Source: Leeuwenhoekiella parthenopeia
GTDB lineage: Bacteria; Bacteroidota; Bacteroidia; Flavobacteriales; Flavobacteriaceae
Direction of reading: 5' to 3'
DNA length: 64,000 bases
Assembly: GCF_020782115.1 (NCBI RefSeq)
Contig: NZ_JAJGMW010000009.1
Coordinates: forward strand, 1-64,000
Shown: piece by piece, positions 1,668 through 15,013 of the stretch
Position numbering within the stretch: the stretch's first letter is position 1
How the letters are laid out: every line of letters begins with the position of its first letter
Program-made: the position numbers and the translations under genes
Notes under the pieces: model-generated
The model's input: only the letters and a program-made list of their open reading frames with translations
Told to the model about the DNA's origin: nothing
Database searches by the model: none

Positions 1668-3227
1668 TTAGCGCTTTAAGGTGAAGTTTCCCTTTAATTC
1701 GCTTACGGAATCGCCCTGACGGTAGCTAATGAGATACCAATAATCGGTTGCGGGCATTTGCTTACCTCGATATGTACCATCCCAGGAAGGATTTGAAGTA
1801 TCTAATTGCTTCAGCAGTTTTCCGAAACGATCAAAAATATAAACGCCCTCTACACGCACATCACCGGCAATTTGTATTTGCCAGCTATCGTGGTAGCCAT
1901 CACCGTTAGGCGTGAAAAACAGGGGAGCACTAATCGGGTTAGAATCGCTAAGTTCTTCAGAAATAATGCTTACCTGAAAAGAAATCTCGTCGTTACAAAA
2001 CGATTCATTTTCTGCATAAACAAAAAATGTAAGGGGATAGCTTTCCCGGGCAGAATACCTGATCTCATCACCTGTACTGTAAGCATCTCCCTGACCCCGT
2101 TCGTCTGTATAAAAAAGAACAGATTCCGGAAGATTGTCTCCGGTTATTTCGGGAAAGGTAAAAGTTTCAACCACCCTAAAGTCCTCAATTGCATCAATGA
2201 CCGGTTTTTGATTAACCTCAACGGTAAGGCTAGCCTCTACCGACCTAAATTCACCTACACGGTCTGTATCTGTAACGATACAACGCAGCGTCGTTGTTTC
2301 ATCAAATGAACCCGTGAATTGCGCCGCGGTTCCCAATACTGAAGTATCTCCTTCTTTATACCATTCATAGGTATAACTGCCAAAGGCTTCCTCCGGTGAG
2401 ATCTGCGTGCTTATTGAAATGATTTCGCCTGCGCAAACCGAAGAAACAGGTTGGAGATCGAGGCTCATACTACAAATTGTTGAAACGCTTACTTCAGCCG
2501 CTCCAAAAATCGCTTGTGAATTCAACAGATTTGTGCAAAGCTCCTGCGTTTGTCCTGTTTCAATATTTACCGTACGTACACTTCCGGCTCCGGTGGCAAT
2601 CATCGTATAATCGATGTTGCCTGTACAGGGTTCCCCGCTTACAACAGATACAACTCCAAACACAAACGAGAAGCCTGAATCATTCATATTTCCTACCAAT
2701 ACACTGGAAGGCGGGTCTGCAATATTGACTTTAACCAAATTATCGTTTAAAGCCGAAAGGTATAAATCACCCTCTATAAAGCTCAAATCTCCTCCCGAAG
2801 GATAATTTGTTGCTCCTAAAAAAGTAGCTTCTAAGGTGTTTGGGTCAATTCTAAATAAAGAGCCGCTGATGTCGTCAGTAACAGCAAGTAAACTGCCATC
2901 TGTATCTTTCACCAGAGAATTAAAGCTTCTAAGTGGACCTGAACTACTGGTCAAATTACCCATTTGGTTTACGACCCCTGCATCAAGATCTATGAGAAAA
3001 AGCGTGGCTCCAAATATGCCGTAGAGGGTGCGATTTGTGGGGCCTTCGGCGATATCAAACATCACAAAACTTCCCGGCCCTATAAGCTCTTCAACGGTGC
3101 AATCATCAAAATTGGCCAAAACAATACTACCATCAGACAAAGACAGATAGGCAGAATTTCTGGTTTGTGCCTGCAAAACAGGAGTAAGCACTACACAAAA
3201 TAAGATTATGGCAATTGCTCTTAGCAC
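1668..3227 (-). CDS. T9SS type B sorting domain cargo protein
   Basis: A 519-residue secreted protein. Residues 1-21 form a signal peptide ending at LQAQ. The N-terminal half has repeated short strand motifs resembling a beta-propeller. An immunoglobulin-like region follows from about residue 255 (YTYEWYKEG), and the last 85 or so residues are a type B T9SS sorting domain: FFTPNGDGYHD, then VYIFDRFGKLLKQL, WDGTYRGKQMP and a final GNFTLKR. The start is a GTG at 3227, as no ATG fits; TATATTTA, a near-consensus -7 box, lies upstream. Export across the outer membrane by T9SS is established for the domain family. The cargo's own activity is unknown. Confidence 0.88.
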   Translation of the reverse strand: MLRAIAIILFCVVLTPVLQAQTRNSAYLSLSDGSIVLANFDDCTVEELIGPGSFVMFDIAEGPTNRTLYGIFGATLFLIDLDAGVVNQMGNLTSSSGPLRSFNSLVKDTDGSLLAVTDDISGSLFRIDPNTLEATFLGATNYPSGGDLSFIEGDLYLSALNDNLVKVNIADPPSSVLVGNMNDSGFSFVFGVVSVVSGEPCTGNIDYTMIATGAGSVRTVNIETGQTQELCTNLLNSQAIFGAAEVSVSTICSMSLDLQPVSSVCAGEIISISTQISPEEAFGSYTYEWYKEGDTSVLGTAAQFTGSFDETTTLRCIVTDTDRVGEFRSVEASLTVEVNQKPVIDAIEDFRVVETFTFPEITGDNLPESVLFYTDERGQGDAYSTGDEIRYSARESYPLTFFVYAENESFCNDEISFQVSIISEELSDSNPISAPLFFTPNGDGYHDSWQIQIAGDVRVEGVYIFDRFGKLLKQLDTSNPSWDGTYRGKQMPATDYWYLISYRQGDSVSELKGNFTLKR

Positions 3228-5532: not shown

Positions 5533-6207
5533 ATGGATGCATTACTTAAAAACTTGAAGATTTCGATCAACGAAAGCATCTTTTTAAAAGATCCGGAATC
5601 GTCAGATTTGGGGAAGCGTATCGTTACTTACGGTATTATTCTTATAAACGATCTGGGATTTGACAACTTCACCTTTAAAAAACTGGCGGCACACATAGAA
5701 TCAACCGAAAGTTCAATCTACCGTTATTTTGAGAATAAACACAAGTTTCTCATCTATTTAACTTCCTGGTACTGGGGCTGGAAGGAGTACCAACTGGTTT
5801 TTGCCACAAACAATATTACCGATCCTGTCGAAAAGCTTCTTAAGGCTATTGAGATTGCCACCCGAGAGGTAGAAGAAGACCAGTCGTTTAATCACATTAA
5901 TGAGGTCATTCTCAATAAAATTGTAATTAATGAGTATTCTAAATCCTACCTTACCAAAGAAGTTGATGATGAAAATAAGGAGGGCTATTTTGCTATTTAC
6001 AAGCGACTCTCCAATCGTATACGAAAAATGATTTCTGATGTTGATCCCACATACCCCTACCCGGCCAGCCTGGCTAGTACTATCCTGGCAGATTCCTTGC
6101 ATCATCATTTTTTGAAAAATCATTTTTCATCTCTTACAGAATGCGATGATCAAACCCCGCCTTCTCACTATTTTAAGCATCTAATCCTAAACCTACTTAA
6201 ATTTTAA
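5533..6207 (+). CDS. TetR/AcrR family transcriptional regulator
   Basis: A 224-residue regulator. The N-terminal DNA-binding domain is visible as FTFKKLAAHI followed by the recognition helix ESTESSIYRYFENKHKFLIY (about residues 45-75), the usual TetR layout, preceded by an extension of about 25 residues. The C-terminal ligand domain (about 80-224) resembles nothing I recognise. The next gene, the ABC protein, starts 3 bases after its stop, so the regulator is the first gene of the exporter operon. It probably represses its own operon through the palindrome over the promoter. The ligand is unknown. Confidence 0.88.
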   Translation: MDALLKNLKISINESIFLKDPESSDLGKRIVTYGIILINDLGFDNFTFKKLAAHIESTESSIYRYFENKHKFLIYLTSWYWGWKEYQLVFATNNITDPVEKLLKAIEIATREVEEDQSFNHINEVILNKIVINEYSKSYLTKEVDDENKEGYFAIYKRLSNRIRKMISDVDPTYPYPASLASTILADSLHHHFLKNHFSSLTECDDQTPPSHYFKHLILNLLKF

Positions 6208-6210
6208 TAT

Positions 6211-7875
6211 ATGGCTAAAGAAGTTTTATCAGCCTGGCAACGTTTTGTTGGCCTTATACAGCTTGAGAAAAAAGATTTTCTGCAAATTTTATACTACGCC
6301 ATATTTGCCGGTTTAGTAAGTTTATCGCTACCGCTGGGAATACAGGCAATCGTAAACCTTATACAGGGTGCTCAGATCAGCACCTCGTGGATAATTCTGG
6401 TCGTACTGGTAACTCTGGGTGTTGCTTTTGTAGGAGCGCTTCAGGTTATGCAGATACGCATCGTAGAAAACCTGCAGCAAAAGATATTTATGCGGGCCTC
6501 TTTTGAATTCACCTATCGCTTTCCAAAAATCAAAATGAGCGAACTTAACCGCTACTATCCACCGGAATTGGCAAACCGTTTTTTCGACGTGCTTACGGTT
6601 CAAAAATCCCTGTTTAAACTGGTACTTGATTTTCCTGCGGCGCTGGTGCAAATCATTTTTGGTCTGATCCTGCTTTCTTTTTACCATCCCTTCTTTATTT
6701 TCTACGGGGTTTTACTGGTCTTACTCATTTATCTGGTATTTAAATTCACCGGAAACAAAGGTTTACAAACCAGTCTTACCGAGTCTAAGTATAAATACAA
6801 GATTGCACATTGGATTCAGGAAATTGCCCGTACTCTCGTGAGCTTTAAACTTTCGGGCAAAACCAGCCTGGCCTTAAAGAAAAACGATGCCCTGGTTAAT
6901 GATTACCTGGATGCACGCGAAAGTCACTTTAAAATTTTACGCCTTCAGTTTATACAAATGATTGGTTTTAAAGTACTCGTTACTGCCGGTCTGTTGCTAA
7001 TAGGAGGTATTTTGGTGCTCAATCAGCAAATGAACATCGGGCAGTTTGTTGCTGCAGAAATTGTGATCCTGCTTATTATTAATTCGGTAGAAAAGTTAAT
7101 TCTGGGGCTTGAGAATTTTTACGATTTACTCACCGCTCTCGAAAAAATTGGACAGGTGGTTGACAAGGAGCTCGAATCTCAGGAGCTATCCAAGCCTTTT
7201 GATCCCAATGAAGAAATCAGTCTTGAGTTGAAAGGTATAGGTTATAAAGATCCTCACGACAAGAAGCAAATTCTTTCAGATGTAAATCTAAAAATCAATC
7301 CCGGAGAACGTTTACTGATTTTAGGAACCAACGGATCTGGTAAATCTACCCTGCTCAAAATCATCACCGGTATTCTTGAACCTACCGCAGGTAATTTATA
7401 CATCAACGAAAAGTCTCTGGAAGGCATTAACCTCAATCATTACCGTTCGTTTCTGGGACAGTCACTGCCCGAAGAAACGCCGTTTGAAGGAAGCATCAGA
7501 GATAATATCACCTTCGGAGACACTTCTATTCCGCTTGAAGATATAGACTGGGCGATAGAAAAGACCGGTTTACGCGACTTTGTAAAAGAACAGTCCAAAG
7601 GTCTTGACAGTCTACTTTATCCAGAAGGGCAACGCCTTTCCCGCACCATTGGCAAAAAGATCGTCCTGGCCCGCAGCATTGTGCGTAAGCCTAAGATTTT
7701 AATTCTTAAAGAGCCTTTAGATAAGTTTGCCAAAGATGAAAAAGAGCGCATTATTAATTTCCTTTTTGACAAATCTAACTCCTGGGCCATCATTGTTGCC
7801 AGTCAGGACGAAGCCTGGCAAAATTGCTGTGACCGCACAGTAACCCTGGAAAACGGTAAAATATCCCAAAATTAA
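6211..7875 (+). CDS. ABC exporter subunit with degenerate nucleotide-binding domain
   Basis: A 554-residue half-transporter fused to an ABC domain, in the HlyB/LapB style but without an N-terminal peptidase domain. About six membrane helices cover residues 25-300. The ABC domain (about 330-554) keeps Walker A (GTNGSGKST) and the Q-loop glutamine (FLGQSLPEETPF). The signature LSGGQ is replaced by LSRTI, the Walker B aspartate by lysine (ILILKEPLDKF), and the H-loop histidine is absent (IIVASQDEAW). ATP binding seems possible but normal hydrolysis doubtful. It is followed after 5 bases by the HlyD gene. It likely forms the inner-membrane part of a tripartite exporter. Substrate is unknown. Confidence 0.85.
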   Translation: MAKEVLSAWQRFVGLIQLEKKDFLQILYYAIFAGLVSLSLPLGIQAIVNLIQGAQISTSWIILVVLVTLGVAFVGALQVMQIRIVENLQQKIFMRASFEFTYRFPKIKMSELNRYYPPELANRFFDVLTVQKSLFKLVLDFPAALVQIIFGLILLSFYHPFFIFYGVLLVLLIYLVFKFTGNKGLQTSLTESKYKYKIAHWIQEIARTLVSFKLSGKTSLALKKNDALVNDYLDARESHFKILRLQFIQMIGFKVLVTAGLLLIGGILVLNQQMNIGQFVAAEIVILLIINSVEKLILGLENFYDLLTALEKIGQVVDKELESQELSKPFDPNEEISLELKGIGYKDPHDKKQILSDVNLKINPGERLLILGTNGSGKSTLLKIITGILEPTAGNLYINEKSLEGINLNHYRSFLGQSLPEETPFEGSIRDNITFGDTSIPLEDIDWAIEKTGLRDFVKEQSKGLDSLLYPEGQRLSRTIGKKIVLARSIVRKPKILILKEPLDKFAKDEKERIINFLFDKSNSWAIIVASQDEAWQNCCDRTVTLENGKISQN

Positions 7876-7880
7876 AAGCC

Positions 7881-9236
7881 ATGCTTAACATCTCGCACAA
7901 TAAGCTTCACGATAAAGTTGATATCTCAGAATATAAGGCTGCTAAAAAAATTCTGGGTAAAAAGCATTATACCTACTTCAACCGCTTTTTACAGGTTTTT
8001 ACTATAATTCTGATCATCATTTTATTTTTACCCTGGACACAGACCATTCAGGGAATAGGTTATGTTACCACGCTTACCCCTGAGCAGCGCCCGCAAACCA
8101 TTCAATCTCCCATACCCGGACGAATTGAAAAATGGTATGTGCGTGAAGGCGATTCAGTAGCTAAAGGGGATACTATTCTCTTTATTTCGGAAGTAAAGAA
8201 TGAATATTTTGATCCGCTACTGGTTGAACGTACGGAGCAACAGGTGCGCGCCAAAAGCAATTCGGTTGCCTCCTACTCCCAGAAAGTAGTCGCGCTTACA
8301 AACCAGATTGAAGCCCTGCAAAATGAACGCGCTTTAAAACTGGAACAGGCCGAAAACAAACTCATACAGGCAGATCTTAAAATCAAGAGTGACTCTATCG
8401 ATTATGAGGCCGCAAAAACCAATCTGGCTATTGCCGAGCGTCAGTTTGAGCGAACTCTGGGTTTACAGCAGGAAGGGCTTAAAGCGGTGACCGATGTGGA
8501 AGAAAAACGCCTGAAACTTCAGGAAACTCAGGCCAAATTGATTTCGCAGGAAAACAAACTCCTTGCAAGCCGTAATGAATTTATAAATGCTCAAATCGAA
8601 ATCAACCGTGTGGGTGCCGAGTACGCCGATAAAATTTCTAAAGCGCAAAGCGAGCGCTCCACCGCCCTATCCAATCAGTTTGATTCGGAAGCCGCAGTGA
8701 GCAAGCTTGAAAATGACCGTACCAACTATGAGATACGTAATGATATGTATTACATCACGGCACCACAAGCTGGTTTCATTAACAAAGCCATAATAGGCGG
8801 TGTAGGCGAGACATTTAAAGAAGGCCAACAACTTGTAGGAATCATGCCTTCTAAATACGATCTGGCTGTAGAAACTTATGTAAGGCCTATCGATTTGCCT
8901 TTGATTCACGTGGGTGAAGAAGTACGAATACAGTTTGACGGCTGGCCGTCAATCGTATTTAGCGGATGGCCTTATAACTCGCTGGGTACTTTTGGCGGAA
9001 AGGTAGTAGCCATAGAACGCTTTATTAGTGATAATGGAAAGTATCGTGTTTTACTGGCTCCTGACCCGGATGAAGAGCCCTGGCCCGAAGCTTTGCGTGT
9101 AGGATCGGGTGCTAATACCCTGGCACTTCTTGAAGATGTGCCTATCTGGTACGAACTGTGGCGCCAGCTCAACGGCTTCCCGCCCAATTATTACACCCCT
9201 GAAAAAGCTGATATCCAAACCGACAAGAAGAAATGA
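7881..9236 (+). CDS. HlyD-family membrane fusion protein
   Basis: A 451-residue periplasmic adaptor. A short cytoplasmic N-terminus is followed by one membrane helix (about residues 34-54). A first half-lipoyl strand motif reads SPIPGRIEKWYVREGDSVAKGD, split here across residues 75-96. A long alanine/glutamate/glutamine-rich coiled coil runs from about 115 to 285, then the second lipoyl half (ITAPQAGFINKAI) and a beta-barrel domain. This is the classical layout linking an inner-membrane ABC protein to a TolC channel. Its end overlaps the TolC start by 4 bases (ATGA), so translation of the two is probably coupled. Confidence 0.9.
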   Translation: MLNISHNKLHDKVDISEYKAAKKILGKKHYTYFNRFLQVFTIILIIILFLPWTQTIQGIGYVTTLTPEQRPQTIQSPIPGRIEKWYVREGDSVAKGDTILFISEVKNEYFDPLLVERTEQQVRAKSNSVASYSQKVVALTNQIEALQNERALKLEQAENKLIQADLKIKSDSIDYEAAKTNLAIAERQFERTLGLQQEGLKAVTDVEEKRLKLQETQAKLISQENKLLASRNEFINAQIEINRVGAEYADKISKAQSERSTALSNQFDSEAAVSKLENDRTNYEIRNDMYYITAPQAGFINKAIIGGVGETFKEGQQLVGIMPSKYDLAVETYVRPIDLPLIHVGEEVRIQFDGWPSIVFSGWPYNSLGTFGGKVVAIERFISDNGKYRVLLAPDPDEEPWPEALRVGSGANTLALLEDVPIWYELWRQLNGFPPNYYTPEKADIQTDKKK

Positions 9237-10648
9237 GAATCTTAATTCGGGTTATTGCGTTGCTTGTTTTTTTGACCACTCCCGTGTGGGCACAGGAAGA
9301 CGCATTGACTACCCTCAGTTTTGAAGAATACCTAAATCTGGTGCAGCAAAATCACCCCCTGGCGCGGCAGGCTTATCTCATTGAGCAAACCGGAGAAGCC
9401 AAACTGCTAAAGGCCCGGGGTGGTTTTGACCCCAAGGTTGAAGTTGATTTTGATCAGAAAGTATTTAAGGATACCGAATATTACGATCTGCTTAACGCTA
9501 CCTTTAAAATACCTACCTGGTATGGTATTGACTTAAAGGCCCAATTTGAGCAGAATGAAGGCTATTACCTAAATCCTCAAAATACAGTGCCCGAAGACGG
9601 CCTCTATACAGCGGGCATTTCAGCTTCATTGGGGCAGGGATTGTGGATTAATGAGCGCATGGCAACTCTTAAACAGGCCCGTTTTTATAGGGAACAAGCC
9701 CGTGCAGACCTGCAACTTGCAGTCACCAATGTCCTGTACGAAGCCTCACTGGCCTACTTTAACTGGTTACAGGATTATCAAAAGGTGTTGCTTTACGAGC
9801 GCTTTTTAGAAAATACAACCGAGCGGTTTGTAGGCATAAAAACCAGTGCACTTTCAGGAGCTATACCTCTTATTGACACTACCGAAGCCAAAATAAGTGT
9901 ACAGAGCCGGGAGTTGAGTTTGCAGGAAGTGCGTCTCGAATATCAAAAATCAAAACTGGAACTTGCCAATTATCTTTGGCTGGGCAATAATATTCCAGTT
10001 GAGTTACAGGATGATATTTATCCCGAAGGAGAACTCAGTGATGTGGTGAGCAGAACGCTTCAGATCACCGAATTTGATTTGGCCGATTTTCAAATTGATA
10101 CCCACCCTAAAATGCGCTCGCTCGATTATAAAGTGCAGGCATTGGAAGTTGAAAAACGCCTGAAAGCCAACAAACTACTTCCGGTCATTGATGTAAACTA
10201 TAACTTTATCACCTCAGAGCCACGTAATCTAAATTCGTTTTATACCCAGAATTACAAAGCCGGTTTGCGCTTTAGCATGCCCTTATTTCTGCGGAAGGAA
10301 CGCGGAGATCTTCAGCTGGCCAGGCTTAAATTACAGGACAGCGAGTTTGAACTCATCAATACACGGCTCACGCTTCAGAATAAAATAAAGGCAGTTAATA
10401 CAGAACTTGAAGTTTTAAAGGAGCAGCAGGAACTGGTTGAAGATTTAGTGATCAATTACGATACGATGCTTGCAGCCGAGTTACGAAAATACGAAGTGGG
10501 TGAAAGTTCTATTTTCCTTATAAACTCGCGGGAAATAAAGCTTATAGACAGTCAACTGAAAGCCATCGAGATCACCAATAAGCTTTATAAAGCCAAAGCC
10601 CAGCTGTTTAAAACACTTGCGGCTGTTCCTGAATTTAATGAGGAGTAA
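9233..10648 (+). CDS. TolC-family outer-membrane efflux protein
   Basis: A 471-residue outer-membrane channel. Signal peptide residues 1-20 end at VWAQ. It has the two-fold helical repeat of TolC proteins: long helices with LSFEEYLNLVQQNHPLARQA near the N-terminus and a second copy from about residue 280 (DTHPKMRSLDYKVQALEVEK). It completes the tripartite exporter with the ABC protein and the HlyD adaptor, translated through a 4-base overlap with the latter. No T-rich terminator hairpin follows, but 149 bases separate it from map, which has its own promoter element. Confidence 0.9.
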   Translation: MRILIRVIALLVFLTTPVWAQEDALTTLSFEEYLNLVQQNHPLARQAYLIEQTGEAKLLKARGGFDPKVEVDFDQKVFKDTEYYDLLNATFKIPTWYGIDLKAQFEQNEGYYLNPQNTVPEDGLYTAGISASLGQGLWINERMATLKQARFYREQARADLQLAVTNVLYEASLAYFNWLQDYQKVLLYERFLENTTERFVGIKTSALSGAIPLIDTTEAKISVQSRELSLQEVRLEYQKSKLELANYLWLGNNIPVELQDDIYPEGELSDVVSRTLQITEFDLADFQIDTHPKMRSLDYKVQALEVEKRLKANKLLPVIDVNYNFITSEPRNLNSFYTQNYKAGLRFSMPLFLRKERGDLQLARLKLQDSEFELINTRLTLQNKIKAVNTELEVLKEQQELVEDLVINYDTMLAAELRKYEVGESSIFLINSREIKLIDSQLKAIEITNKLYKAKAQLFKTLAAVPEFNEE

Positions 10649-12174: not shown

Positions 12175-12947
12175 TTGGCAAACTCTTTAAACGCATTTTA
12201 AATACAGTTCCCAGACCCCTGCTTATACGACTAAGCTATGTTGCCCGGCCTTTTTTGGCATTATGGCTAAAGGGATCGCACTATACCGACCCCATAGACG
12301 GCAGGTCGTTTAAAAAATTTCTTCCGTACGGCTACGGTAAGCCCCGAGAAAATGTACTCTCTCCCTCTACTCTTTCGCTCGAGCGACACAGATTGCTTTG
12401 GTTATACCTAAAAAATGAAACCGATTTTTTTAAAGCCTCTCATAAGGTGCTGCATTTTGCTCCCGAACAGGCTTTTTACAAGCGTTTCAGATCTCTTAAA
12501 AACCTCAATTATACCACCACCGATTTGCTTTCGCCTCTGGCAGATGTAAAGGCAGACATTTGCAATTTGCCTTTTGAAGACAACAGCTATGATGTCATTT
12601 TATGCAATCACGTGCTTGAGCATATACCTGATGACACCAAAGCTATGCATGAACTTTATCGCGTTCTCGAACCCGGTGGAATGGCCATTTTACAGATACC
12701 TCAGGATCTTTCAAGAGAAAAAACCTTTGAAGACGACAGCATCACAGATCCTGAAGAACGCGCCGCTATATTTGGCCAATACGATCACGTACGCGTTTAT
12801 GGCAGGGATTATTTTGAAAAACTTCGCAGTATAGGGTTTGAAGTTCATGAGATTGATTATACCCAAAAACTTAAAAAAGAGCTTGTAGATACCTATCGCC
12901 TGGCTGCAGGCGAAATTTTACCGGTTTGTTATAAACCAGCGTCATGA
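12171..12947 (+). CDS. Class I SAM-dependent methyltransferase
   Basis: A 258-residue protein. The SAM-binding region starts VLHFAPEQ (an unusual motif I variant), continues with the acidic TTDLL, and has the motif FEDNSYDVILCNHVLEHIPD with LEPGGMAILQIP, typical of the Methyltransf_11 type. An upstream stretch of about 65 residues is rich in aromatic and basic residues. The ATG at 12171 overlaps the HNH gene's stop. The gene also overlaps the next one by 4 bases at 12944, indicating translational coupling on both sides. The substrate is unknown; lipid or sugar acceptors are possible. Confidence 0.85.
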   Translation: MIGKLFKRILNTVPRPLLIRLSYVARPFLALWLKGSHYTDPIDGRSFKKFLPYGYGKPRENVLSPSTLSLERHRLLWLYLKNETDFFKASHKVLHFAPEQAFYKRFRSLKNLNYTTTDLLSPLADVKADICNLPFEDNSYDVILCNHVLEHIPDDTKAMHELYRVLEPGGMAILQIPQDLSREKTFEDDSITDPEERAAIFGQYDHVRVYGRDYFEKLRSIGFEVHEIDYTQKLKKELVDTYRLAAGEILPVCYKPAS

Positions 12948-15013
12948 AAAAAATTACAATCGTTTTGTTCATGGTATTTTTTGGTGTTTTAAACGCCCAA
13001 AATGCCAACGATTGTACAGATGCTATTGTTCTTTGCGGGGATACTCCGGTAGGAATACAGCCTAACGGAGTGGGTTTTGATGAATTTAGTCTGCCGGGCA
13101 ATTTCCCGCCCCCGTGTTATTCGTTTAACAATCAAACCGCGTGGTTTAAAGTAGAAATCGATCAGGGCGGAAGTTTTACATTTGATATTGTCCCCGAAAA
13201 TCCAAACGACGATTATGATTTTGCAGTTTACGGGCCTGTTCAGGACTGTCAAAACCTGGGAAGTGCAATTCGCTGTAGCAGTACGCATCCGCCTTCGGCA
13301 AACGTAAGTGCCGATACCGGTCTTAATGATACCGAAACCGATACTTCAGAAGGACCGGGAGCTGACGGCAACGGTTATCTGAAGGCCATTGATGCCAGTC
13401 CCGGAGAAACCTATTACATTCTTATAGACCGTGCCAGTGGTTCTGCGGGCTTTGATATCAATCTTACGGGCAGCGCCACAACACCCAAAACCACGGGTTA
13501 TAATACACCTGAAGATTTTGAAATTTGTTCCACAACCGGAACAAATACCTATGATCTTAGCATACAGCGTGATTTGATTTTACAGGGCTTTCCCGATACC
13601 CGGGTGAGTTTTCATAAAGAACTTGGAGATGCTAATCTGGCAACCAATGAGCTGGCTGATTTGTACACAAATACTGTAGACCGCGAGACCCTTTACGCAC
13701 GTATTTTTAGTCCGTTAAACGCCTGTTCAGAACTAGTGCCTTTTGAAATAAGCATTGCTGCGTCTTTGGTTAATGATAACCCCGGGTCTGTTTTTATATG
13801 CGACCCGAGCATAAATCAAAACTACAACCTTTTGCCACTGGGCAATCAAATTATAAGATCCCGTTCAGACCAGCAAATCCGGTTTTATCAATCTCAGCAA
13901 GACAGAGATGCCGACCAAAATGCCATAACAACCCTGAATTTGAGCAGCTCCCAGACACCGGTGTACTATCGCATAAACAGTGTTAACGGAGATTGCCTGC
14001 TACATGATGCACTTAACTTTTACCTAACCCAGCCACCGGTATTAATTAAGCCTTCAATACTGAATGTGTGCATCGCAAACGAAAGCAGCCTGACTTTAAA
14101 TTTAGATCAAAAAGCAAATGAGGCTTTATCAGGGCAGGATATTTCAGTATTCACCAGGCGTTATTACGCAACGGCAAACGATAGGAATCTCGATCAAAAC
14201 CGTCTGAGTTCAAATTATACTACCGAAGCAAATGATCAGGAGATTTTTATGCGAATAGTAGATAATCGCAGCGGCTGCTATTCTGATACTTCTTTTGAAG
14301 TTGTAGTTGATGAAAGTCCTGTATTTGAATTTCCCGAAACAGCTTTTTACTGCACAGATACTCAGGAACCGGTCGAATTGAGCGTAGCTTCCGGCTTTAC
14401 CTATTATGAGTGGAGCACGGGTCAGGAAGGTATTGATCTCCATACCATATCGATCGATGAACCGGGAGCATACAGCATTACCGTTTATAACGAAGCTGGT
14501 TGCTCCACTACTCAAACTGTTCAGGTTTTGCCTTCCGAAAAGGCTATTGTTGAAACGGTAGAAGTTACCGGGCTCAATTACCCCAACAATGAAGTAAGTA
14601 TTCGGGTATCAGGAAGTGGTGCTTATGAATTTTCGCTAGACGACGGTCCCTATGTAGAAAGCTCTGTTTTCACCAGACTTTCAGCCGGCTATCACCAGCT
14701 TGCCATAAGAGATCGCAATGGTTGCGGTACAGTAGAAACTCAGCCCTTTTTAGTTCTTGATTATCCCAGGTATTTTACTCCAAATGGGGATGGCATTCAC
14801 GACACCTGGCGATTGATTGGTCTCGAAGAATATCCCGGGGCTCAAATCTTTATCTACGACCGTTATGGCAAACTTTTAAAGCAGTTACAATCATCTTCAG
14901 AGGGCTGGGATGGCACCTTTCTGGGAACACTTTTAAATCCTGATGACTACTGGTTTGAACTTCAATTGCCCGATGGTATTAGCCTTAAGGGACATTTCAG
15001 TCTTATTTACTAG
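12944..15013 (+). CDS. T9SS type B sorting domain cargo protein
   Basis: A 689-residue secreted protein. Residues 1-18 form a signal peptide ending LNAQ. An N-terminal domain of about 170 residues with CTDAIVLCGD and WFKVEIDQGGSFTFDI looks like a pre-peptidase/CUB-like beta-sandwich. It is followed by several beta-rich repeats with paired cysteines and a YEWSTGQ immunoglobulin-like motif. The last 90 residues are a type B T9SS sorting domain (RYFTPNGDGIHDTW, FIYDRYGKLLKQL, WDGTFLG, GHFSLIY). It starts inside the end of the methyltransferase gene (ATGA). Its stop overlaps the convergent apbE stop by 11 bases. Likely surface-located or released adhesin; function is unknown. Confidence 0.87.
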   Translation: MKKITIVLFMVFFGVLNAQNANDCTDAIVLCGDTPVGIQPNGVGFDEFSLPGNFPPPCYSFNNQTAWFKVEIDQGGSFTFDIVPENPNDDYDFAVYGPVQDCQNLGSAIRCSSTHPPSANVSADTGLNDTETDTSEGPGADGNGYLKAIDASPGETYYILIDRASGSAGFDINLTGSATTPKTTGYNTPEDFEICSTTGTNTYDLSIQRDLILQGFPDTRVSFHKELGDANLATNELADLYTNTVDRETLYARIFSPLNACSELVPFEISIAASLVNDNPGSVFICDPSINQNYNLLPLGNQIIRSRSDQQIRFYQSQQDRDADQNAITTLNLSSSQTPVYYRINSVNGDCLLHDALNFYLTQPPVLIKPSILNVCIANESSLTLNLDQKANEALSGQDISVFTRRYYATANDRNLDQNRLSSNYTTEANDQEIFMRIVDNRSGCYSDTSFEVVVDESPVFEFPETAFYCTDTQEPVELSVASGFTYYEWSTGQEGIDLHTISIDEPGAYSITVYNEAGCSTTQTVQVLPSEKAIVETVEVTGLNYPNNEVSIRVSGSGAYEFSLDDGPYVESSVFTRLSAGYHQLAIRDRNGCGTVETQPFLVLDYPRYFTPNGDGIHDTWRLIGLEEYPGAQIFIYDRYGKLLKQLQSSSEGWDGTFLGTLLNPDDYWFELQLPDGISLKGHFSLIY

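Follow-up and report, generated by a model that had tools for sequence, protein, structure and literature searches.

In tripartite export systems that end in a TolC-type channel, the energised inner-membrane transporters are of ATP-binding cassette (ABC), resistance-nodulation-division (RND) or major facilitator superfamily (MFS) type (PMC8277102). An ABC exporter that has lost its ATPase is already known: SbmA is an ABC exporter membrane domain that lacks a nucleotide-binding domain (NBD) and is proton-driven, and a YddA-like, NBD-bearing ancestor has been proposed for it (PMC13316013). An engineered MsbA that lacks the NBD transports ethidium with a pH gradient as the driving force (PMC4979069), and TAP, CFTR, Pdr5 and TM287/288 have one degenerate ATP site, with substitutions in Walker B, the H-loop and the signature (PMC7756269). 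Here we describe an exporter gene in a 64,000-nucleotide stretch of DNA from Leeuwenhoekiella parthenopeia (contig NZ_JAJGMW010000009.1 of assembly GCF_020782115.1, positions 1 to 64,000, forward strand), which we call the window. The locus resembles type I secretion of the HlyB/LssB type in its gene order, exporter-adaptor-OEP, where OEP is the outer-membrane channel gene, but differs from it in that the catalytic motifs of the exporter are lost.

The exporter gene (6211..7875, + strand) is an open frame of 554 amino acids with an ATG start and matches to the Pfam families ABC_membrane and ABC_tran. A conserved membrane domain occupies amino acids 1-325 (6211..7185, +), and a degenerate NBD occupies amino acids 335-552 (7213..7866, +). 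Of the features of a type IV exporter, the membrane domain and Walker A are present, and the signature, Walker B Asp, Q-loop Gln and H-loop His are not. Walker A is intact (GTNGSGKS, amino acids 372-379; 7324..7347, +), as an initial annotation of this DNA had stated, and that annotation was also right that the signature reads LSRTI in place of LSGGQ (amino acids 476-480; 7636..7650, +) and that the H-loop His is absent, the alignment with members carrying ISHD or ITHD placing Gln532 there, preceded by S531 (7804..7806, +). Its reading of Walker B as LILKEP (amino acids 497-502; 7699..7716, +) holds for the Asp, which is replaced by Lys (K500), with the correction that the catalytic Glu (E501) is retained. 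Its statement that the Q-loop is kept was mistaken: an ungapped alignment to ABCB1 places Pro420 at the position of the Gln (7468..7470, +). The AlphaFold confidence and the matches to solved exporters predict a folded NBD that lacks its catalytic residues: the AlphaFold2 model, made from 49 aligned rows, has a mean predicted local distance difference test score (pLDDT) of 87.4 (75.6-87.4 over five models), and its closest solved folds are TmrAB, TAP, PCAT1, TM287/288 and HlyB. The membrane domain has the six-helix exporter fold, with a Foldseek probability of 1.00 to TmrAB, PCAT1 and HlyB. Among the best 25 of 180 NCBIfam matches no model reached its cut-off, the best being TIGR03375 LssB (type I secretion) at 185.6 bits against a cut-off of 693.1.

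To place these substitutions we used genome surveys that covered the phylum Bacteroidota. An exporter match was found in 177 of 299 genomes of the window's taxonomic family at E <= 1e-60 (the window's own included), in 97 of 395 genomes drawn from the phylum (exporter profile, 1e-100) and in 170 of 395 drawn from the class (membrane-domain profile, 1e-60). The alignment of 199 rows, minus two (a split frame and a contig end), comprises 174 NBD-bearing rows of the clade, 9 NBD-less rows and 14 rows outside it; rows dropped before counting were L130 (the window copy), L166 (the split frame) and L230 (the contig end), and L200-L229 lay outside the frame scan and hence are uncounted. Three duplicates reduce the 174 rows to 171 distinct sequences. 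Clade membership was assigned by tree for 97 of the 174, the remaining 77 being nearer copies of tree rows. As a control we used another type IV exporter from the same genomes (the 585-amino-acid frame of L004; the nearest NCBIfam model is SmdA, below cut-off).

The losses run through the whole clade. Walker A (G4GK) is present in 162 of the 171 distinct sequences, but Walker B Asp500 in only 15, Glu501 in 27 and the H-loop His532 in 2. Gly479 of the signature occurs in one sequence, and neither GG at 478-479 nor Gln480 occurs in any (0/171 each); Asp500, His532 and Gly479 are all missing in 153/171, and the combination of Asp500, Glu501 and His532 is found in none (0/171). The Q-loop Gln is present in 4/171 clade sequences and 0/14 outgroup rows, compared to 18/18 at the Q-loop of the control exporter; a nearby Gln, Q417, which is not at the Q-loop position, is found in 42/171. 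An aromatic A-loop residue (Y/F) is present in 171 of 189 NBD-bearing rows. The control exporter has LSGGQ in 29 of 30 sequences (one has MSGGQ), and the Walker B Asp and the His in 30/30 each; its catalytic position is Asp. Decay of one local copy is thus ruled out, in agreement with the initial annotation, which had argued against random decay and had named close homologues with intact motifs as the sign that only this copy was decayed. The pseudo-ATPase state is not confined strictly to the window's class, since a few members that show it (L144, L159 and L186) are from genomes that do not belong to that class.

The domain that is usually conserved is here the faster one. Among 18 genomes that have both genes, the membrane domain of the exporter has a mean pairwise identity of 74% and the NBD 49%, with the membrane domain higher in all 153 pairs, whereas in the control exporter the figures are 67% and 74% and the membrane domain leads in 6 of 153 pairs. 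Sets of the 30 best loci agree (74/50% for the exporter, 66/73% for the control). The tree lengths of membrane domain and NBD are 4.5 and 12.1 for the exporter and 6.2 and 5.1 for the control–that is, NBD:membrane ratios of 2.7 and 0.8, so that, each measured against its own membrane domain, the NBD of this family changes about threefold faster than that of the control. The initial annotation was therefore right that the frame is open, but the surroundings of the motifs, which it described as conserved, are less conserved than usual. This inversion of rates bears on the idea of an unorthodox working ATPase, in which the substituted residues would still allow slow hydrolysis. Position 501, at which 109 of the 174 rows carry Asp and 29 carry Glu, as the window copy does, fits such an enzyme, but we consider this the least probable of the accounts weighed here, in view of the inversion, the lack of any clade member with Asp, Glu and His together or with the signature GG or Gln, and the existence of relatives that have lost Walker A or the NBD itself.

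Nine rows have a broken Walker A, which requires five changes on the first of two trees (described below) and four on the second, from which L245 was excluded; three of these four are forced by well-supported branches. The motif is unambiguously unrecognisable in L120/L123/L124/L244, in L177/L237 and in L245, and has single-residue changes in L047 and L104. In nine genomes from three families (f3, f9 and f10) the exporter is a version of 334-361 amino acids that ends just past the last membrane helix. At these loci the adaptor open frame, counted from stop to stop, starts no more than 64 bases from the exporter's stop codon or overlaps it, so there is no space for an NBD remnant, and adaptor and OEP genes are downstream in 9/9; one of the genomes (G536) is a single 7.0-Mb contig. 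No detached NBD of this family was found in the nine genomes among the matches listed, a search that a very diverged copy could escape: with the NBD of L188 as query, the listed matches were all generic, and the best of them scored 101 bits (31% identity) and lies in a 607-amino-acid full-length exporter, compared to 501 bits for the source itself. A tenth candidate (G889/L230) was rejected because its frame runs off the contig end. The NBD-less rows form one clade, with Shimodaira-Hasegawa-like approximate likelihood ratio test (SH-aLRT) support of 99 in the first tree and support of 100/99 in the second, and their neighbour is the pseudo-ATPase row L188 (99, first tree). Six of the nine were checked for the 46 family-invariant residues of the membrane domain and retain 38-43 of them. 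The second intracellular loop of the exporter fold carries the coupling helix to the NBD, and both of its well-conserved positions change in the NBD-less rows: W201 is present in 174/174 NBD-bearing but 4/9 NBD-less rows, and F212, in the coupling helix, in 173/174 but 1/9.

These relatives also bear on a nucleotide-switched exporter, in which ATP at the retained Walker A would gate the membrane domain without hydrolysis, the energy coming from elsewhere or the transport being downhill. Such a switch would account for the frequency of Walker A and of the A-loop aromatic, for the NBD fold predicted with high confidence and for purifying selection on the NBD within the genus. We nevertheless regard it as unlikely, because it is not essential to the family–Walker A is unrecognisable in three lineages and the NBD is absent from nine genomes with the same gene order–and because the NBD has lost the signature, by which the ATP sandwich is closed.

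Both trees were built from membrane-domain columns only, the first with 120 rows and the second thinned to 79, without the long-branch rows L175, L245, L249 and L173 and with a bootstrap that had not fully settled. Pseudo-ATPase and NBD-less rows together are split from the rest by a branch whose support is 100 in the first tree (106/120 rows) and 100/100 in the second (68/79 rows). Ten of the 14 outside rows retain the Walker B Asp and Glu and the H-loop His–for example, L175 has LSTGQ, LLIIDEG and ISHD, and L170 has LSTGE, LLILDEP and ITHD–and in both trees these ten branch outside the clade. They come from the same phylum and none from the window's class, and their exporter gene stands before an adaptor gene in 10/10 and before an OEP gene in 9/10. 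Most signatures in the outside rows are eroded, and the other four rows lack the His, or the Glu and the His. The NBD of the ten rows with Asp, Glu and His is less relaxed than that of pseudo-ATPase rows with equal membrane-domain identity. The simplest history suggested by these sequences is that the Q-loop and signature eroded first, Walker B and the H-loop were lost at the base of the clade, and later losses followed inside it, with some parallel loss outside.

In the window, the exporter is the second gene of what is likely a single transcription unit, because its genes lie 3 and 5 bases apart and the final pair shares 4 bases. The unit begins with a TetR-type regulator (5533..6207, +; Pfam TetR_N, 26.5 bits), 3 bases before the exporter, and continues 5 bases after it with an HlyD-type periplasmic adaptor, or membrane fusion protein (7881..9236, +; HlyD_3 and Biotin_lipoyl_2), which overlaps a TolC/OEP outer-membrane channel gene (9233..10648, +; Pfam OEP, 137.5 bits). 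The gene set of type I secretion (exporter, HlyD-type adaptor and TolC-type channel) is present, and the tripartite operon is complete, as first annotated. Among relatives' loci with room for the gene in question, the adaptor is the next gene in 184/193, an OEP gene is present in 117/122 and a TetR gene lies upstream in 135/194.

Some loci depart from this arrangement. The Raineya-type members L125, L126 and L127 have neither an adaptor nor a TolC gene alongside, and three Saprospiraceae loci (L097:7788-10413, L100:8046-10678 and L107:7728-8363) have one or two additional genes between exporter and adaptor (about 635 amino acids; 212-240 amino acids). Genome G345 has two complete copies of the operon (L180 and L181), both with pseudo-ATPase exporters. 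Bins titled Thalassovita and Bifidobacterium breve (L105 and L112) carry a Bacteroidota-type operon, and their titles are probably wrong. An N-terminal extension of about 170-230 amino acids, which the window copy lacks, is found in the majority of outside rows and in several members of the pseudo-ATPase clade; the bearers are the members of 690-840 amino acids (e.g. L125:5488-7752, L170:4630-7146 and L188:3907-6150), and the extension had no Pfam match in the three members tested. Elsewhere in the window, two proteins (1668-3227, - strand, and 12944-15013, + strand) have C-termini of the FTPNGDG(Y/I)HD type, which we take to resemble the type B sorting domains of the type IX secretion system.

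The initial annotation had noted only one ABC subunit in the operon, and no partner was seen there. No second exporter-type ABC gene was found in the flanks of the loci, which span about 1.5 to 6 kb a side and so leave room for distant partners. Six extra ABC matches in the loci were considered as partner subunits and none fits: UvrA-like genes at L171, L172 and L174 (three outside loci, where they adjoin the exporter gene) and an Opp-like soluble ATPase at L116, all named from their N-terminal sequence, an ATPase 1.3 kb downstream of the OEP gene at L160, and an opposite-strand frame at L249. With the Walker B Asp, the H-loop His and the signature lost, a homodimer would have no normal hydrolysis site, as that annotation had reasoned, and pairing with an intact partner would leave one half of each site broken. 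A heterodimer of the TAP or TM287/288 kind, with its catalytically intact half-transporter encoded at another place in the genome, is for this reason very unlikely. The genome does encode other exporters, three of which were read and carry the signature, Walker B Asp and His, but the best other match in the window's genome is only 24% identical to the exporter, no partner lies in the flanks, and NBD-less relatives exist.

ATP hydrolysis is unlikely to be the energy source, because of the damage to the composite sites and the existence of NBD-less relatives, and we infer that it is absent. The initial annotation had offered three options. A second subunit is disfavoured by the logic of the composite sites and by the nine NBD-less relatives, and ATP binding alone fails as a general rule because Walker A or the whole domain has been lost in some lineages, so that the option we favour is another energy source. 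Eighteen ionizable positions of the membrane domain, some of them within membrane helices, are conserved at 95% or above, including E86, R123, D126, K132, K195, H239, E283, E294, K295, D305 and K312; E283 and K/R254 are conserved and lie in plainly hydrophobic stretches. A scaffold would seem to require fewer of them, which counts against a passive or gated conduit in which the membrane domain merely anchors and seals the adaptor-TolC channel without pumping. Such a conduit would agree with the fact that no energising gene was recognised among the listed neighbours, but an active pump is what one would expect of a unit that is linked to TetR and brings its own adaptor and TolC, and we think a conduit improbable.

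The account that we find most probable, with somewhat better than even confidence, is that the exporter works without hydrolysing ATP and is probably driven by protons, its pseudo-ATPase being vestigial or regulatory. The protein would be the inner-membrane subunit of a TetR-linked tripartite export system (inner-membrane protein, adaptor and TolC) and would descend from a type I secretion-like ABC exporter, presumably ATP-driven, that gave up ATP hydrolysis. Its conserved membrane domain, presumably as a homodimer, would transport together with the adaptor and TolC, probably in the export direction. The NBD would do no more than bind nucleotide or assist assembly, and since it has been deleted in one lineage it could in principle be done without. 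The energy would most likely be taken from the proton gradient through ionizable residues of the membrane helices, as in SbmA and NBD-less MsbA. A wider claim, which we make more tentatively and at a little under even confidence, is that a branch of Bacteroidota turned an ABC exporter into a secondary-active, proton-driven pump, losing the Q-loop and signature, Walker B and the H-loop, here and there Walker A too, and at last the whole NBD, while membrane domain, adaptor and TolC were kept together.

Several observations weigh against this account. No fully canonical member was found, the Q-loop Gln being absent in 14/14 outgroup rows, four of which additionally lack His or Glu, and in the ten outside rows with Asp, Glu and His the NBD (44% identity) is already less conserved than the membrane domain (52%). 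Because the outside rows are non-canonical and their NBD is already relaxed, ATP use by the ancestor is something we infer, and the inversion is stronger in the clade without being unique to it. Loss of the Q-loop strengthens the pseudo-ATPase interpretation and weakens the claim of an ATP-driven ancestor by about as much. Within Leeuwenhoekiella, the ratio of nonsynonymous to synonymous substitution rates (dN/dS, by YN00), a rough estimate near synonymous saturation, is 0.03-0.09 for the NBD (3 of 6 pairs computable) and 0.017-0.023 for the membrane domain (6 of 6 pairs). The NBD is therefore under purifying selection within the genus, which the initial annotation had named as a sign of a real pseudo-ATPase family if it went with conserved substitutions, and together with Walker A in 162/171 this means that it still does something in most species. 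Deletion of the NBD is a single event on the trees, and in the NBD-less proteins 8 of 52 well-conserved positions outside the second loop have changed too, Y304 the most. The conserved ionizable membrane residues are common to the outgroup, so there is no sign of newly evolved proton coupling, and a capacity for it, if real, would be older than the loss of the ATPase.

If the wider claim is correct, TolC systems have a further type of energised inner-membrane subunit beside ABC, RND and MFS, and many Bacteroidota genes that are likely read as ATP-driven exporters (177/299 genomes in the window's family) are non-ATPases. There would also be a natural series of intermediates from primary to secondary transporter, within one conserved operon type: an NBD with Walker B and H-loop, a pseudo-NBD, an NBD without Walker A, and no NBD. 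The series makes it possible to test, with natural proteins, if the membrane half alone of an ABC exporter is a secondary transporter and ATP drive an addition to it, a question that has rested on SbmA and laboratory-truncated MsbA. A search of the open-access literature, with subscription journals and preprints outside it, found no description of this exporter family. The Flavobacterium johnsoniae tolC operon (PMC10197871) was set aside because that paper describes it as RND-like, with another gene order. What is new relative to that literature is loss of the ATPase inside an adaptor-TolC operon with the intermediates preserved.

Among known systems, the window exporter is structurally close to type I secretion, its model having a TM-score of 0.89-0.90 to HlyB in 8dck. 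Its match to the LssB profile starts at position 140, the N-terminal domain of LssB being absent. Exporters with one degenerate site retain one consensus site, whereas the window NBD would spoil its own half of both. The nine NBD-less relatives are like SbmA/BacA (the SbmA-like peptide transporters, SLiPT), but the window protein itself bears an NBD. SbmA imports peptides and has an extra TM0, whereas this family sits in an adaptor-TolC operon in which pseudo-NBD stages survive, and its origin appears to be separate, because the NBD-less rows nest inside the exporter family in trees made of family rows only. MsbA-MD is a laboratory truncation, whereas the NBD-less relatives are a natural and evolutionarily stable state.
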